From positions 558,001 to 622,000 of the forward strand of contig CP021424.1 in assembly GCA_002162095.1 (NCBI GenBank): a DNA stretch of 64,000 bases, read 5' to 3'. Under the pieces are notes generated by a model. That model searched no databases. It saw only the letters and a list, made by a program, of their open reading frames with translations, and was not told the DNA's origin. Positions 20,070-26,194 of the stretch are shown one piece after another (position 1 is the stretch's first letter; the number at the start of each line of letters is the position of its first letter). Position numbers and translations under genes: made by a program. This DNA comes from Armatimonadetes bacterium Uphvl-Ar2. GTDB taxonomy: Bacteria; Armatimonadota; Fimbriimonadia; Fimbriimonadales; Fimbriimonadaceae.

Positions 20070-23000
20070 TCACCCAACGAGAAAGTCGGCGGTGGTGATG
20101 GGCAGCGTTTGCTCCAGGTCCACCGCCTTGACGATCTCGGGCTGATACGCAAACACCCGCTGAGCCAAAAACGCCGTGTGGTCTTCGCGCACCTGCGTCA
20201 CCCCGATGATGGTGACGTAAGGCGAACACACAATCGCGTGGCCATCCCGCCGGTAAACGGCATCAAAGCAGGTGACATTCAGCAGGCCGGTCTCGTCTTC
20301 GAGGTCGAAAAACACCACCCGCTTGCCGCTGGGCGTGGGCGGGAAACGCAGCCGAATGGGGTTGCCCACCACCATCACTTTCTTACCATTGGGTTGGCGA
20401 CGGGCTTCCCAGGTGGTGAGCCCACCCCGTCCGCTCACCCGCTCCCGCTCAAACGCCATGAGGTGCTGGTGCACATCCAGCCCCAGGAGGGCACGCTCGC
20501 GGATCGCCTTCTCCTCCGGCGAGAAGTCCGTCATCTCGGGCAGGGTGGGGGGCGGCACATCCAGTTCCAGCCCGCCCGAAACCGCGCCGCGCCACGCCAA
20601 CCAGTCCGGCACCGCGCACAGCAACGCCCGGCGGTGGGGATGCAGGGCGTCCAGCCCGCCGCACTGGATGAGGGTCTCCAATTCATCGCGGTTCAGCGCC
20701 ACCCGCCGCACAAAATCCGCCACCGAGAGGTACGGCTGCCCCGCCACAATCGCCGCGCGGGCGGGGGCACTCAGCCCCTTCAGCGCCGTCAGCGCCAGCC
20801 GAATCCCCCCGCTCGGCACCCCGAGTTTCGGGTCATCCTCGGCCACAATGTCCTCCACCGCGTAGTCCTCGGTGCTGCGGCTCACATCCAGCGGCAAAAT
20901 TCGAATGCCCCGCGTGCGCGCCTCATTGGCGATGGTGCACGGGCCGTAATAGCCCGCCGGTTGCGCCTGCAGCAGCGCGGCAAAGTAAGGTCCGGGGAAG
21001 TTCTGCTGGCACGCAATGGAGCGCACCGAAATCTCGGCGAAGGCCAGCGCGTGCCCCTGCGCAAAGCCGTACCCCCGGAACCCCGCCGCCATATCCACCG
21101 CTTCGGCCGCTACCGCCTCGGTGTAGCCCCGGTCCACCGCCCGCTGGATCAGCTGGGGCCGCAGCACCTGCCCGTAATCCTCCCGCCGCCGCTTGTGGAT
21201 CTCCTCCCGGATCTCCTCCGCTTCCCCGCTGGTGCACCCGCAGAACACCTGCAGCAGTTGGTCCACTTGCTCTTGGAATACCAAGATGCCGTAGGTATTG
21301 CCCAGGATGCGCTCAAAATCGGGGTGGCTGAGTTGATAGCTCTTGGTGCCCCGGCGACGGCCAATCAGTTCGTTGATCTTCACCGCGCCCCCCACGCCCG
21401 GGCGGATGCCCGCCTGCACCAGGCTCGCATCCGTTAGGTTCATCGTTTGCAGGCGCATGTGGGCTTGCCGCATGGCGGGCGAAGCCGATTGCGGGATGCC
21501 CACCAGTTCCCCGCTGCGCATGGCCTGATAGGTGTGGGGGTCATCCAGCGGCAGGTTCTCCACCCGGAAATCTAGGTGCTGCAGGCGCACCCGCTCCTGC
21601 GTGCCGGAGAGCACATCTTGCCCGCGCAGGCATAGGATGTCGAACTTATCGAAGTAGTGCTTGGCGCTGCGCTTATCCCACTGGATGATGCGCAGGTTGC
21701 CGTCTTCCTGGTCGCCCGCCGACCACTGCACCGGCACCGTATCCGCCAGCGGCCGACGGGAGACAATGACGCCCGAAGAGTGCGCCCGGATATTGCGCGG
21801 CACATCCGCCAGCACCGTAGAGAGGCGGAACACCCACTCTAACCTTTCGGTGGAAATGCCACTGTCTCTCAGCTCGGGGCGTTCGCTGATGTTGCGCGCC
21901 AGGCGCTCCGGGTCAATCCCCCGTGCACCCGCTTGGCAATAAAACCAATGGCATCGGTAGGCAAACCTAGCGCCTTGCCTACCTCCCGCAGGATGCCACG
22001 CGTGCCGTAAGCGCCAAAGGCCGCCACCGTCGCCACGTGGTCCACCCCGTACTGGTGGATCATGTAGTTGCGCACGTCATCGCGCCGGTGCGCCTCAAAA
22101 TCCATGTCAATATCCGGGCGCTTACTCCCGTCATCCGGCAAAAAGCGGTCGAAGTGCAAGCGGTGCGTAAAGGCATCAATGCGGCTGATGCCCAGGCAGT
22201 ACGCCACCGCGCAATCCACCACCGACCCCCGCCCGCTGAGCAGGATGCCCTGGTCGCCCGCCCACCGCACCAGGTCGGCGGCCATGAGAAAGTGCCCCGC
22301 AAACCCCAGCCGGATGATGCGATCCAGCTCCCCATTCAGCCGCCGGTGCAGGGCCTTGGTGGGGTTGCTGTGCCTCAGCGCGGCCCCGCTCATCACCGCC
22401 GCCCGCAGGGCTTGGCTCTCGTCGGCGGCCATGGGCGGCAGTTCCGTGCGCCGGGGCAGCAGGTCGTCGTCGCACATCTCCGCCACTCGGTGCGTGTTCG
22501 CCACCAGGTCGGGGCGATCCTGATAGCGCGTCAGCATCTCGGCCGGCGGGCACAGGTAGCGCTCGGCATTCAGCGCCCGCAGGGGGCGGGGGCGGGGTTG
22601 CGGCTGGTCGGGGTGGCGCGTAGGCTTGCGCCCGAAGAGCTCTTCCACCGTAGCCAGTGTCGCGCTGCACAGGGCCACATCCTGCGCCGGAAACTGGTCC
22701 AACTCCGCGTGGGTCACCGGCCCGCCCGCCACCGGCGTCACGCCCAGCGCCTCGGCGAGTTGCAGCAGGCGGTAACTGCAGTTCCACTCCCAGGGTTCAA
22801 ACGTGCGCTCCACTTGCACAAACACCCGCTCCCGCCCGTAGAGTTTCACCAATTGGTTGAGCCGGTCTTCCGCCTCTTGCAAGTTGCCGGCCTGCAGGGG
22901 CCGGTCCACCCACCCCGCGCTGCCCCCGGTGAGCACCAGCACGTCCTGCGTGTATTCCCCCAAGAGCGCCCGCGAACCCAGCGGATACAGGCGCGGATGC

Positions 23001-23590
23001 CGCAAATGGCAGTGGGTGACGAGGTGCGAAAGCGAGCGATAGCCCGCCGGCGTCATCGCCACCAGCACCAGGTCGCCGCCCTCCACCATCTCGATCGTGG
23101 TGCCAATCAGCGGCTTCACCCCGCACTGCCGCGCATCCCGCGCAAACTCCACCACCCCCGCCAGCGACATCCGGTCGGCCAGCAGCGCCGAAGGGATGCC
23201 CACTTGCGCCGCCCGCCGCGCAATCTCGGTGGCAAACATCACGCTCCGCCCAAAGGAGTAGCCCGAGACGGCGTGCAGCAGTGTGTAGTCCGTCGCCCCG
23301 CTCCGGTACTGCGGATACACGGGCTCGCGGATCATCCCGTTGGCCCGCCGCACCTTCTCGTCACGGGTTTTGCGCGGGCGCAGCAGCACATCCTCCCGGT
23401 GCGCGTAAGGGTCCACGTCCAGCGTCACCGGCGGCACCCCGCTTACCAATCGCGAGAGCGGCGTGATGTCCTCGTGCACGCGCCCCCGGTGGTCACGCCA
23501 GCGCAGAACCTCGCGCGGTACTTCGCCTTCCCACCACGCGCCCACCTCGCGCCACCGCGCCAGGATCTCACGACCAGCCAATCGCGTCAC
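20070..23590 (-). CDS. dnaE2: Error-prone DNA polymerase III alpha subunit DnaE2/ImuC, interrupted by a one-base frameshift
   Basis: Two frames form one gene: 21869-23590 (N-terminal) and 20070 to about 21920 (C-terminal). They meet at a five-C run (21918-21922), where one added base turns HGGLTRSAW into HGGIDPERLARNISERPEL and gives 1173 residues. GTG 23590 overlaps imuB. The polymerase core carries PDIDMDFEAHRR, with the two catalytic Asp, and the SGRGSVVDCAVAYCLGIS palm motif. Helix-hairpin-helix and OB-fold regions follow. The PHP domain is degenerate (LLHAVSGYS and LADRMSLAG replace LHCHSNFS-like and LTDHDGLYG-like motifs). About 100 unusual residues precede it. In the known ImuB-DnaE2 mutasome this enzyme performs SOS translesion synthesis. 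Confidence 0.88.
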
Positions 23591-24740
23591 TCCACTGGCG
23601 CAGCCACCGCTCGCGCCGACTGATCTCGATCTCGCACGCCCGCTTGATGGTGCCCACCCCCATCGCCGCCACCACCCGCGCCCGGGCCGTCTCGGCGGCA
23701 TCCTGCCGCTCGGATGAACCCACCATTTGGTCGAGTTGCCTCTGCACCCGCTTCGCCCCCTGCAATCGAGGCAAAGAGAGCGTGGCGCGTACCGGCGGCC
23801 ACGGCAGCCCCCGGTCCACCACTTGCCGGTAGAACACGCGCAACGGGTGCGCCTGCGCCACCGGCTTCGCCAGTTGCCGCCGGTACGTCACGGTCTGCCC
23901 CTCCTCGTTGGTCATCGTCAGCCACAGGGTGCTGGCCATGCGGTCGTGCCGCGCCAGGCGCAGGGCTAGGCGGTGCGCCATCTCATCCCCGGCCAGTTCC
24001 AGCGCCATGCGGTCCTCGCACCCGGCCCCGAAATCCCACCTTTCGGTGTAAGCCTCCGGCGGGTAGTTGGGTTTCAGCGCGCCGGGGTCCGCCCCCTGTG
24101 CCAGTTGTTGCACCCACCAGGCGCGTTTGCCCACCGCGCGGGTCAGCGCGGGCAGGGGCAGTTGCGCCACCACCCCCAGCCGCCGGTAGCCCAGCAGCTT
24201 CAAGCGGTCACGCTCTTCGGTCGTCAGCTCCGTCAGCCAGTCCACGGGCCAGCGTGCCAGTTCGCTCGCCTCCACCTCGCCGCCGCCGTAAACCCCCAGG
24301 TCCAGGGCATCCGGGGGCACCTCCACGCGCACGGCATCCGCCATCCAGGCTGCCCTGGCCAGTCCCATGGCCACGCCCCCCGGCCCCGACCGCCGCACCG
24401 CCCGCGCCATCTCCCCCGCCACCTCGCGCGGGTCGGGGTGGGCGCGCAGGTCCACCAGGGCCTCCGCCGGGCTGCGCACCACAATCAGGTCACTGTAGGC
24501 CAGCAGCGCCCGCCACCAGGTGGCCGCCCGCCGCCGCGCCTGGGCCATATCCACCGCCACGTATTGGCCATCCTCCCGCAAGATCGCCTTCGCATCGGCC
24601 AGTCCCCCACCCACTTGCACACCCCGCTGCAGGGCGGCGGGGGTGGCGTCGCGCACCGTGTCTCCGTCAAAGATCACGGTCGGCACGGCCGGGTCATGTT
24701 CGGCCGCGTAAAAGCCCGGGCGAAAGAGGCTGACTATCAT
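23568..24740 (-). CDS. imuB: ImuB-like Y-family polymerase paralogue (non-catalytic mutasome hub)
   Basis: 390 residues with the fold signature of Y-family polymerases but without their active site. The start reads MIVSLFRPGFYAAEHDP where DinB has a VDMDAFFASVE-type motif. The SIDE motif reads SPAEALVDL, keeping Glu but losing the catalytic Asp. A helix-hairpin-helix region (LGVVAQLPLPALTRAVGKRA) and a little-finger region (EDRMALELAGDEMAHRLALR) follow. Loss of catalytic acids with linkage to dnaE2 is diagnostic of ImuB, which bridges DnaE2 to the beta clamp. No imuA is present. ATG 24740 lies two bases from a palindromic operator. Confidence 0.85.
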   Translation of the reverse strand: MIVSLFRPGFYAAEHDPAVPTVIFDGDTVRDATPAALQRGVQVGGGLADAKAILREDGQYVAVDMAQARRRAATWWRALLAYSDLIVVRSPAEALVDLRAHPDPREVAGEMARAVRRSGPGGVAMGLARAAWMADAVRVEVPPDALDLGVYGGGEVEASELARWPVDWLTELTTEERDRLKLLGYRRLGVVAQLPLPALTRAVGKRAWWVQQLAQGADPGALKPNYPPEAYTERWDFGAGCEDRMALELAGDEMAHRLALRLARHDRMASTLWLTMTNEEGQTVTYRRQLAKPVAQAHPLRVFYRQVVDRGLPWPPVRATLSLPRLQGAKRVQRQLDQMVGSSERQDAAETARARVVAAMGVGTIKRACEIEISRRERWLRQWSDAIGWS

Positions 24741-24741
24741 A

Positions 24742-24801
24742 TAGACTTACGTCTACTATTATGCGCATCTCGCCTGGTGATTAGTAGACTATTATCTACT
24801 A
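24742..24801 (-). promoter_or_regulatory. Two SOS-like (LexA-type) operators upstream of imuB-dnaE2
   Basis: Box 1 is the perfect palindrome TAGAC-TTAC-GTCTA at 24742-24755. Box 2 is TAGAC-TATT-ATCTA at 24785-24798, inside the longer inverted repeat TAGTAGA-N6-TCTACTA at 24782-24801. The two boxes share phase and right-hand flank (CTATT) and start 43 bases apart, about four helical turns. A -10-like CATAAT (24763-24758, minus strand) puts box 1 on the transcription start and box 2 on the -35. That is the usual position of repressor sites. LexA itself is not in the window, so the identity of the repressor is inferred from the genes controlled. Confidence 0.72.
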
Positions 24802-24844: not shown

Positions 24845-26194
24845 TCACACCGGCAGGCCGGCGCGCCGATACCGCTCGCGCACTTCCGCCGTTGCCGTGG
24901 CAAAATCCACCATCGGCAGGGTCAGCGCCTTCGGCCCCCATCGCCGCACAAACGCGCCATCACGGTCGTAAGTGCGCGCCTGTTTCTCCACATCAAACAC
25001 CCGGAACGGCACCGGATCGTGCCCGATCCCCGCCACGTACTGCCAGTTGCCGTAGTTGCTCGCCGGGTCGCAATCCACCAGTTGGGATTCAAACCACCGC
25101 GCGCCCCACCGCCAGTCCACCCCCAGCGTCTTCACCAAGAACGAGGCCACCACCTGCCGCCCCCGGTTGCTCATATAGCCCGTGGCCGCCAGTTCGCGCA
25201 TGCACGCATCCACCAGCGCGTAGCCCGTGGTCCCCGTGCGCCAGCGCTCAAAGTCATCCCGGTCGCGCCGCCACGCCACCCGCGCCTGCCGGATCCCCCC
25301 GTCCAAGAACAAGTCCCGCCCGTGCGCCCGCGCCGACCAGTGGAAAAAATCGCGCCACAGCAGTTCAAACCCCAGCCAGTAGGTGCTCTCGTTCGCCCCG
25401 CGCTCCTGCTCGTAGCGCTTCACCTCGTGCCATACCCGGCGCGGCGACAACGCCCCGCACGCCAGCCACGGCGAGAACTTGCTGCTGTCATCCTCGTTCA
25501 GCAAGCCGTTCCGGGTCTGCTTGTAAACCGCCAGCCGGTCGGTCTGCCACAGGTAATGGTTCAGCCGGGCCAGGCCCGCGCGTTCACCACCCGCATAGCG
25601 CCCCGCCGCCTCCCGGGGCACCAGCGGCACCTCCCACGCCGGCTCGCACTTCACCCCCACCAGCCCCGTCTCAAGAACAGCCTCCGGGCGCACCCGCACC
25701 GACTTCTCCACCCGCGAGCGGTACTGCGTGAACACCCGGGGTAGTGCCGGCACCGCAAAGGGCAAATCATCGCGGTGATGCAGGGTGTCGGCCGAGGAAA
25801 AATGCACCCAAACCCCTTGCCGCCGTAGCCGCAGGGCCAGACGCTTCTCCAATTGCACCTCGTCCCAGGCGGGCTCCGTGTGCGCCCACACCTGCTGCAC
25901 CTCCCACCGGGCGGCTTCTTCCGCCACGATGGTCTCCGGGTCCCCAAATCGCACCCGCAAGGTCACGCCCTGCGCGGCCAGTTGATCTCGCAAGTCCGCC
26001 AGGGTCTCGGCCAAGAACCGCACCCGATGCGACCCCATCCGCGGCCAACCCAGTCGCGTCGTGCGCATCCAGGCTTCTTCCCACACAAAGAGGGCGACCA
26101 CTGGGTGCCCCTTCGCCGCCGCCTGGGCTAGCAAACCGTGATCGTGAACCCGCAAATCACTACGGAACCAAAGCAAGACCGACCCGGTGGACAT
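24845..26194 (-). CDS. Cryptochrome-DASH-type photolyase
   Basis: 449 residues. The N-terminal Rossmann-like domain starts VLLWFRSDLRVHDHGLLAQA. The FAD-binding helical domain carries the DASH-type signatures YKQTRNGLLNEDDSSKFSPW, LACGALSPR, WLGFELLWRDFF, GYMSNRGRQVVASFL and DCDPASNYGNWQYVAGIG. DASH proteins repair cyclobutane dimers, mainly in single-stranded DNA, using blue light. It lies directly upstream of the imuB-dnaE2 operators, forming a small DNA-damage block, but the operators are placed to control imuB. The start is ATG 26194. Confidence 0.93.
   Translation of the reverse strand: MSTGSVLLWFRSDLRVHDHGLLAQAAAKGHPVVALFVWEEAWMRTTRLGWPRMGSHRVRFLAETLADLRDQLAAQGVTLRVRFGDPETIVAEEAARWEVQQVWAHTEPAWDEVQLEKRLALRLRRQGVWVHFSSADTLHHRDDLPFAVPALPRVFTQYRSRVEKSVRVRPEAVLETGLVGVKCEPAWEVPLVPREAAGRYAGGERAGLARLNHYLWQTDRLAVYKQTRNGLLNEDDSSKFSPWLACGALSPRRVWHEVKRYEQERGANESTYWLGFELLWRDFFHWSARAHGRDLFLDGGIRQARVAWRRDRDDFERWRTGTTGYALVDACMRELAATGYMSNRGRQVVASFLVKTLGVDWRWGARWFESQLVDCDPASNYGNWQYVAGIGHDPVPFRVFDVEKQARTYDRDGAFVRRWGPKALTLPMVDFATATAEVRERYRRAGLPV

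Follow-up and report, generated by a model that had tools for sequence, protein, structure and literature searches.

Two GTAGAC-type palindromes upstream of imuB-dnaE2 as very probable LexA operators (SOS boxes) in Fimbriimonadales

LexA is the textbook example of a regulator whose DNA code changes in evolution although its targets stay the same. The SOS box is CTGT-N8-ACAG in E. coli and GAAC-N4-GTTC in Bacillus, and the Xanthomonas-type LexA box is TTAGTAGTAATACTACTAA. The system described here resembles LexA/SOS systems in general in having an autocleavable LexA, RecA, the same target genes, palindromic operators over promoters and tandem boxes. It differs from them in its GTAGAC/GTCTAC arms, in operators that lie at start codons or inside ORFs, and in a lexA gene with one half-site. 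The TAGTAG/CTACTA outer arms are shared with the Xanthomonas-type box, whereas the spacing differs by 3 bp.

PMC8565304 counts 17 LexA motifs reported by 2021, gives GGTT-N10-AACC as the Geobacter motif, and sets out a model in which LexA motifs change by duplication, divergence and takeover. At several deltaproteobacterial (Geobacter-type) lexA loci we found palindromes of the form GTTGAC-N4-GTCAAC, which share the dyad geometry and the C-N4-G core with the boxes studied here but have GTT.. instead of GTA.. as the outer arm and go with a different recognition helix. The Balneolaeota motif, described in PMC7739468, was likewise found in a new phylum from lexA promoters, and its regulon also includes recA, translesion synthesis (TLS) polymerases and a radical SAM protein; the motif itself, however, is a direct repeat, TTACACATATTTTWTACATA, unrelated in sequence to GTAGAC-N4-GTCTAC. 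The latter matched none of the motifs quoted in the excerpts of these two papers, a comparison that covered motifs other than those of Verrucomicrobia and Patescibacteria. The published Patescibacteria motif may resemble it.

The window, i.e. the whole stretch of 64,000 nucleotides analyzed here (G000:C1:558001-622000), is part of a 2.63 Mb genome assembled as a single contig. A 104-bp gap between the photolyase gene and imuB, which is followed by dnaE2, holds two copies of TAGAC-N4-RTCTA (Table 1). The coordinates confirmed the description given in the sequence-only reading that the copies start 43 bp apart and that the second one lies within a 20-base inverted repeat. That reading had also left two bases between the first copy and the start codon; the actual distance is one base (imuB ATG at 24740-24738, minus strand). 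Its statement that the motif is unlike the E. coli and Bacillus boxes proved correct, neither of these being present in the box sequences. When up to one mismatch to the 14-mer was allowed, the window contained four strand-matches, confined to the two places upstream of imuB; shuffling of the window gave an expectation of 0.87 matches, and at least four strand-matches appeared in 3 of 100 shuffles.

Table 1. Features of the imuB-dnaE2 locus and box copies elsewhere in the genome. Positions are those of the window, or of the contig where marked 'genome'; mismatches (mm) refer to GTAGAC-N4-GTCTAC. The names VOC, uvrC and nrdR come from reading of the sequences.
Feature	Position	Strand	Remarks
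14-mer TAGACTTACGTCTA	24742..24755		
14-mer TAGACTATTATCTA	24785..24798		
20-bp inverted repeat TAGTAGACTATTATCTACTA	24782..24801		encloses TAGACTATTATCTA; arms complementary at 7/8 positions
Proximal predicted SOS (LexA) box GTAGACGTAAGTCTAT	24741..24756 (G000:C1:582741-582756)	-	1 mm; abuts imuB ATG
Distal predicted SOS box GTAGATAATAGTCTAC	24784..24799	-	core of the 24782-24801 inverted repeat; about four helical turns (43 bp) upstream; over expected -35
Predicted -10 CATAAT	24758..24763	-	conserved (T/C)ATAAT-AGTAGAC arrangement; putative promoter
imuB, Y-family polymerase-like mutasome subunit, 390 aa	23568..24740	-	Pfam IMS E 2.5e-07, IMS_C E 1.1e-04
dnaE2, error-prone Pol III alpha, second operon gene	20070..23701	-	ORFs; Pfam PHP, DNA_pol3_alpha, DNA_pol3_finger, HHH_6
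Photolyase gene	24845..26194	-	directly upstream of imuB promoter region
Box, 0-1 mm: imuB			two boxes (above)
Box, 0-1 mm: class II ribonucleotide reductase gene (L006)			after nrdR; Pfam Ribonuc_red_2_N E 5.9e-33
Box, 0-1 mm: DinB_2 gene (DinB superfamily, L005)			after uvrC; ATG within box; Pfam
Box, 0-1 mm: sigma-like gene (L001)	G000:C1:245706-248719		
Box, 0-1 mm: VOC/glyoxalase-type gene (L002)			
Box, 2 mm: lexA	genome 1142413..1142428		GTATACTCACGTCTGC over -10
Box, 2 mm: Pol IV	genome 1630523..1630538		codons 2-7 of M-P-D-V-R-L-P
Boxes, 2 mm: before two DinB-type genes	genome 1433033, 1879366		
Box, 2 mm: before DNA methylase-like gene	genome 1077924		
Box, 3 mm: recA			GTATAGTTTTGTCTAG over -10

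For the genome-wide search the pattern was widened to GTAGAC-N4-GTCTAC, within a fuller core GTAGAC-N4-RTCTAC and a consensus TAGTAGAC-N4-GTCTACTA. The exact 14-mer occurred at six forward places, compared with four for the reversed control pattern, and the widened pattern at two mismatches occurred at 46 places, compared with 139 for its reversed control. Since the control was equally frequent, motif abundance was rejected as evidence, and the argument is built on where the sites lie, which genes they precede and how well they are conserved. The places with no or one mismatch numbered six, and each of them coincides with a gene start or lies a short way ahead of one. At L001, a perfect box GTAGACTTTTGTCTAC stands before the gene start and is followed by a sigma-70-like (ECF) frame, which is possibly another frameshifted gene.

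The sequence-only reading had named lexA and recA of the same genome as the places where an SOS box should recur. The exact 14-mer was not found at either gene in the genome-wide pattern search, but both carry degenerate copies (Table 1), and lexA has in addition an exact half-site, TTGACATGTAGACA, just after the -35 element. In the relatives, recA genes with the exact box and lexA genes with TTGACA-n-GTAGACA (23/23, see below) are in agreement with the SOS interpretation, which thus withstood the check.

We examined the same regions in relatives. Exact genome-wide matches in 60 relatives were located before recA (8), Pol IV (7), imuB, uvrA, nrdB, nrdJ and DinB-type genes; all eight exact recA promoter boxes belong to one family (f2) and show the arrangement TATAAT-n3-GTAGAC-N4-ATCTAC. 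The dyad at no more than two mismatches was present in a share of 0.77 of the Pol IV regions, 0.60 of the 30 recA regions, 0.37 of the imuB regions and 0.03 of the lexA regions, compared with at most 0.003 of the control windows from the same loci. The shares for an exact half-site were 0.83 (lexA), 0.81 (imuB), 0.80 (Pol IV) and 0.53 (recA), the controls giving 0.03-0.06. A scan of spacer lengths showed a peak at spacer 4 for imuB and recA. The imuB start codon is in or beside the box element in most of 28 relatives, in the form TATAATAGTAGACATATGnCAC or near it, and TATAATAGTAGAC is the -10/box arrangement at imuB in many of them; a second box upstream of imuB (L272) was also seen in G044, from another family of Fimbriimonadales. 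One relative (G037) has an exact box preceding a radical-SAM (SplB-like) gene, and no box was found in the umuDC operon of G039. The conserved positions of the boxes show which genes belong to the regulon.

A draw of 201 genomes from the phylum contained 30 distinct exact sites within the order (35 genomes, 107 Mb) and 27 outside it (166 genomes). When the exact matches in other Armatimonadota were read singly, many were inside genes or at repeats, and one was a lexA promoter. In a 5.2 Mb relative (G175; L290, L291, L292), several intergenic palindromes similar to TGTAG..N..GTAGAT-N4-GTCTAC-TTATG have the appearance of a dispersed repeat and not of SOS boxes. In G038, a perfect palindrome is situated about 250 bp upstream of an S24 repressor gene, a distance too great for interpretation. 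Perfect or near-perfect boxes were also observed, in several Armatimonadota families, before genes for a family of small proteins (L195, L204, L206, L274, L276; 140-168 aa). Its members share a P-x-Y-T-E-like motif and a sigma-70-region-4-like HTH, and most of them also carry a C-terminal GL..VYR.E..R motif. It is possible that this family is an SOS-controlled transcription factor without a name.

The lexA promoters showed a different organization. A search of 61 genomes with TTGACANGTAGACA (TTGACA-n-GTAGACA) gave 23 exact matches and the reversed control two, and comparison with the lexA coordinates placed all 23 immediately upstream of lexA. In Fimbriimonadales lexA, only one half-site is strongly conserved and the second arm is mostly missing; in several genera, a GTCTAC arm is found 18 bp beyond the half-site, across the -10. 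A peak for the N4 dyad was sought at the lexA promoters and not found, spacers of 8-9 and 18-19 being seen instead. One lexA paralog of G186, from another family in the phylum, has a full dyad, TTGACA-GTAGACCTATGTCTAC-TATATAAT, between the -35 and the -10. The predicted lexA operator is a half-site variant.

The LexA of the window's own genome matched the Pfam families LexA_DNA_bind (E 9.2e-20) and Peptidase_S24 (E 2.5e-36) and, among solved LexA structures, best 3k2z (E 5.7e-45); it is 97% identical to the LexA of the MAG 'Chthonomonas sp. UBA2785', and the relatives that come next bear the names Fimbriimonadaceae or Armatimonadetes. These names are the basis for the presumed placement of the genome in the little-studied order Fimbriimonadales (phylum Armatimonadota). 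In the alignment, its Ala-Gly cleavage site and its Ser and Lys residues match those of E. coli LexA, whereas the recognition helix reads SLRGVTVHL compared with SPNAAEEHL in E. coli. We sorted lexA genes according to this helix and looked for GTAGAC/GTCTAC up to 150 bp upstream. Outside the order, 9 of the 11 genes with S[LI]RG[VA][TS][VI]HL helices had the half-site in their own promoters, compared with 5 of the 90 with other helices (Fisher p 5e-8, a value that is too small because the sequences are related to each other). Among the remaining Armatimonadota sampled, the half-site accompanied this helix type in 7 of 7 cases, six of them as TTGAC(A)..GTAGAC. Two LexA proteins with the helix SLRGVTIHL (L140, L141) had no half-site within 150 bp upstream of their genes.

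A paralog with the helix SLRGVTDHL (L310, the lexA of G091), one residue apart from SLRGVTVHL, has CCAGACAAATGTCTGG instead of the GTAGAC half-site; the perfect palindrome in its own promoter, ATACCAGACAAATGTCTGGTAT (CCAGAC-N4-GTCTGG), has a changed outer arm. This pair suggests which helix residue reads which base. In WWE3 (Patescibacteria), the promoter for a LexA with the helix SIRGASVHL (L171) contains GTCTAC and AGTAGACATATG, including GTAGAC, and this element is much like the Fimbriimonadales imuB element. The proposal that the box is a lineage-specific SOS box is supported with respect to SOS, but specificity for GTAGAC goes with one type of LexA throughout the phylum and reaches beyond the order.

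Taken with the gene content, these comparisons make it very probable that the host LexA uses both imuB palindromes as operators, i.e. SOS boxes. It is very improbable that LexA uses a different site and that the palindromes bind another damage or light regulator, for instance a repressor of the CI/S24 type or a protein linked to the photolyase. The photolyase gene directly upstream, the weak matches to further S24 proteins in some relatives and the lack of the exact box at lexA of the own genome would fit such a regulator; the half-site, however, is kept at lexA and tracks the LexA recognition helix across paralogs, and the targets, recA and uvrA among them, are classical SOS genes. In addition, no lexA was detected in G030 and G230 (one family with reduced genomes of 1.5 Mb), and in G030, a single genome, recA is without a box and Pol IV has lost the left arm, keeping the right one. 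Against a light or photolyase regulator in particular stand the absence of any box before the photolyase gene of the window and the SOS character of the targets, and this reading was rejected. That the repeats are due to chance, or are promoter- or terminator-related palindromes with no regulator, is scarcely credible: the number of genome matches near that of the reversed control and the TAG/CTA within the arms, common in AT-rich promoter DNA, speak for it, but the dyad is found in 0-0.3% of control windows as against 37-77% of regions at imuB, recA and Pol IV, and conservation of the boxes extends over genera and families within the order, so that the conservation tests refute it.

With LexA as the regulator, we infer binding, repression and damage induction at the boxes. 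Bound to the proximal box, a LexA dimer would cover the imuB start codon together with the part of the promoter that immediately follows the -10. A further dimer, roughly four turns upstream on the same face, would cover the -35 and add to the repression. DNA damage would activate RecA and lead to self-cleavage of LexA, a step suggested by the LexA residues and established LexA knowledge, and imuB-dnaE2 would then be transcribed. The same box would control recA, lexA, Pol IV, ribonucleotide reductases, uvrA and DinB-superfamily genes across Fimbriimonadales.

The Pol IV genes place the box within the reading frame. In 17 of the 22 readable genes the box is in frame, GTA-GAC-NNN-NNT-CTA-C being read as V-D-x-x-L-(P). 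An ATG or GTG codon directly precedes it in 11 of these 17, and a TATAAT-like -10 is often present a few bases upstream. If the putative start codons are right (both they and the transcription starts are predicted), the mRNAs would be nearly leaderless and LexA would sit on the first codons. The Pol IV switch is thus probably written within the protein-coding sequence itself, a possible case in which the codons for an N-terminus double as a repressor site. We are evenly divided on the broader proposal that in Fimbriimonadales the operators of LexA have shifted into coding sequence, with Pol IV codons 2-7 giving M-V-D-x-N-L-P, the imuB start inside the box and a split operator at lexA. In this split operator, one half-site would be fused to the -35, joined in some genera by another that lies 18 bp off across the -10. 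Such an arrangement would require either a pair of LexA dimers, each on a site with one good half, or a novel contact mode.

Both translesion polymerase genes of the genome are broken in the assembly. The dnaE2 gene is split by one missing base near 21922, seen as an alignment gap in comparison with the congener G001, in which dnaE2 is an intact open frame of 1272 codons. Pol IV (L255, G000:C1:1628800-1631200) is likewise broken by a single missing base and is intact in G001. Each missing base is the only indel compared with G001 over 2.4-4.8 kb at 95% identity. The breaks may be assembly errors or a real loss of both mutagenic polymerases.

We found no literature report of a LexA motif for Armatimonadota or Fimbriimonas, and as far as this search showed, no SOS regulon had been described for Armatimonadota before the present one. 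Takeover intermediates appear to exist side by side in the phylum: some genomes encode two or three LexA paralogs that differ in helix type, and among these coexisting paralogs it is the SLRGVTVHL type that has GTAGAC in its own promoter. Fimbriimonadales appears to keep the SLRGVTVHL type only, running the classical regulon with it. The coexisting LexA types make the takeover model testable by helix and operator swaps.
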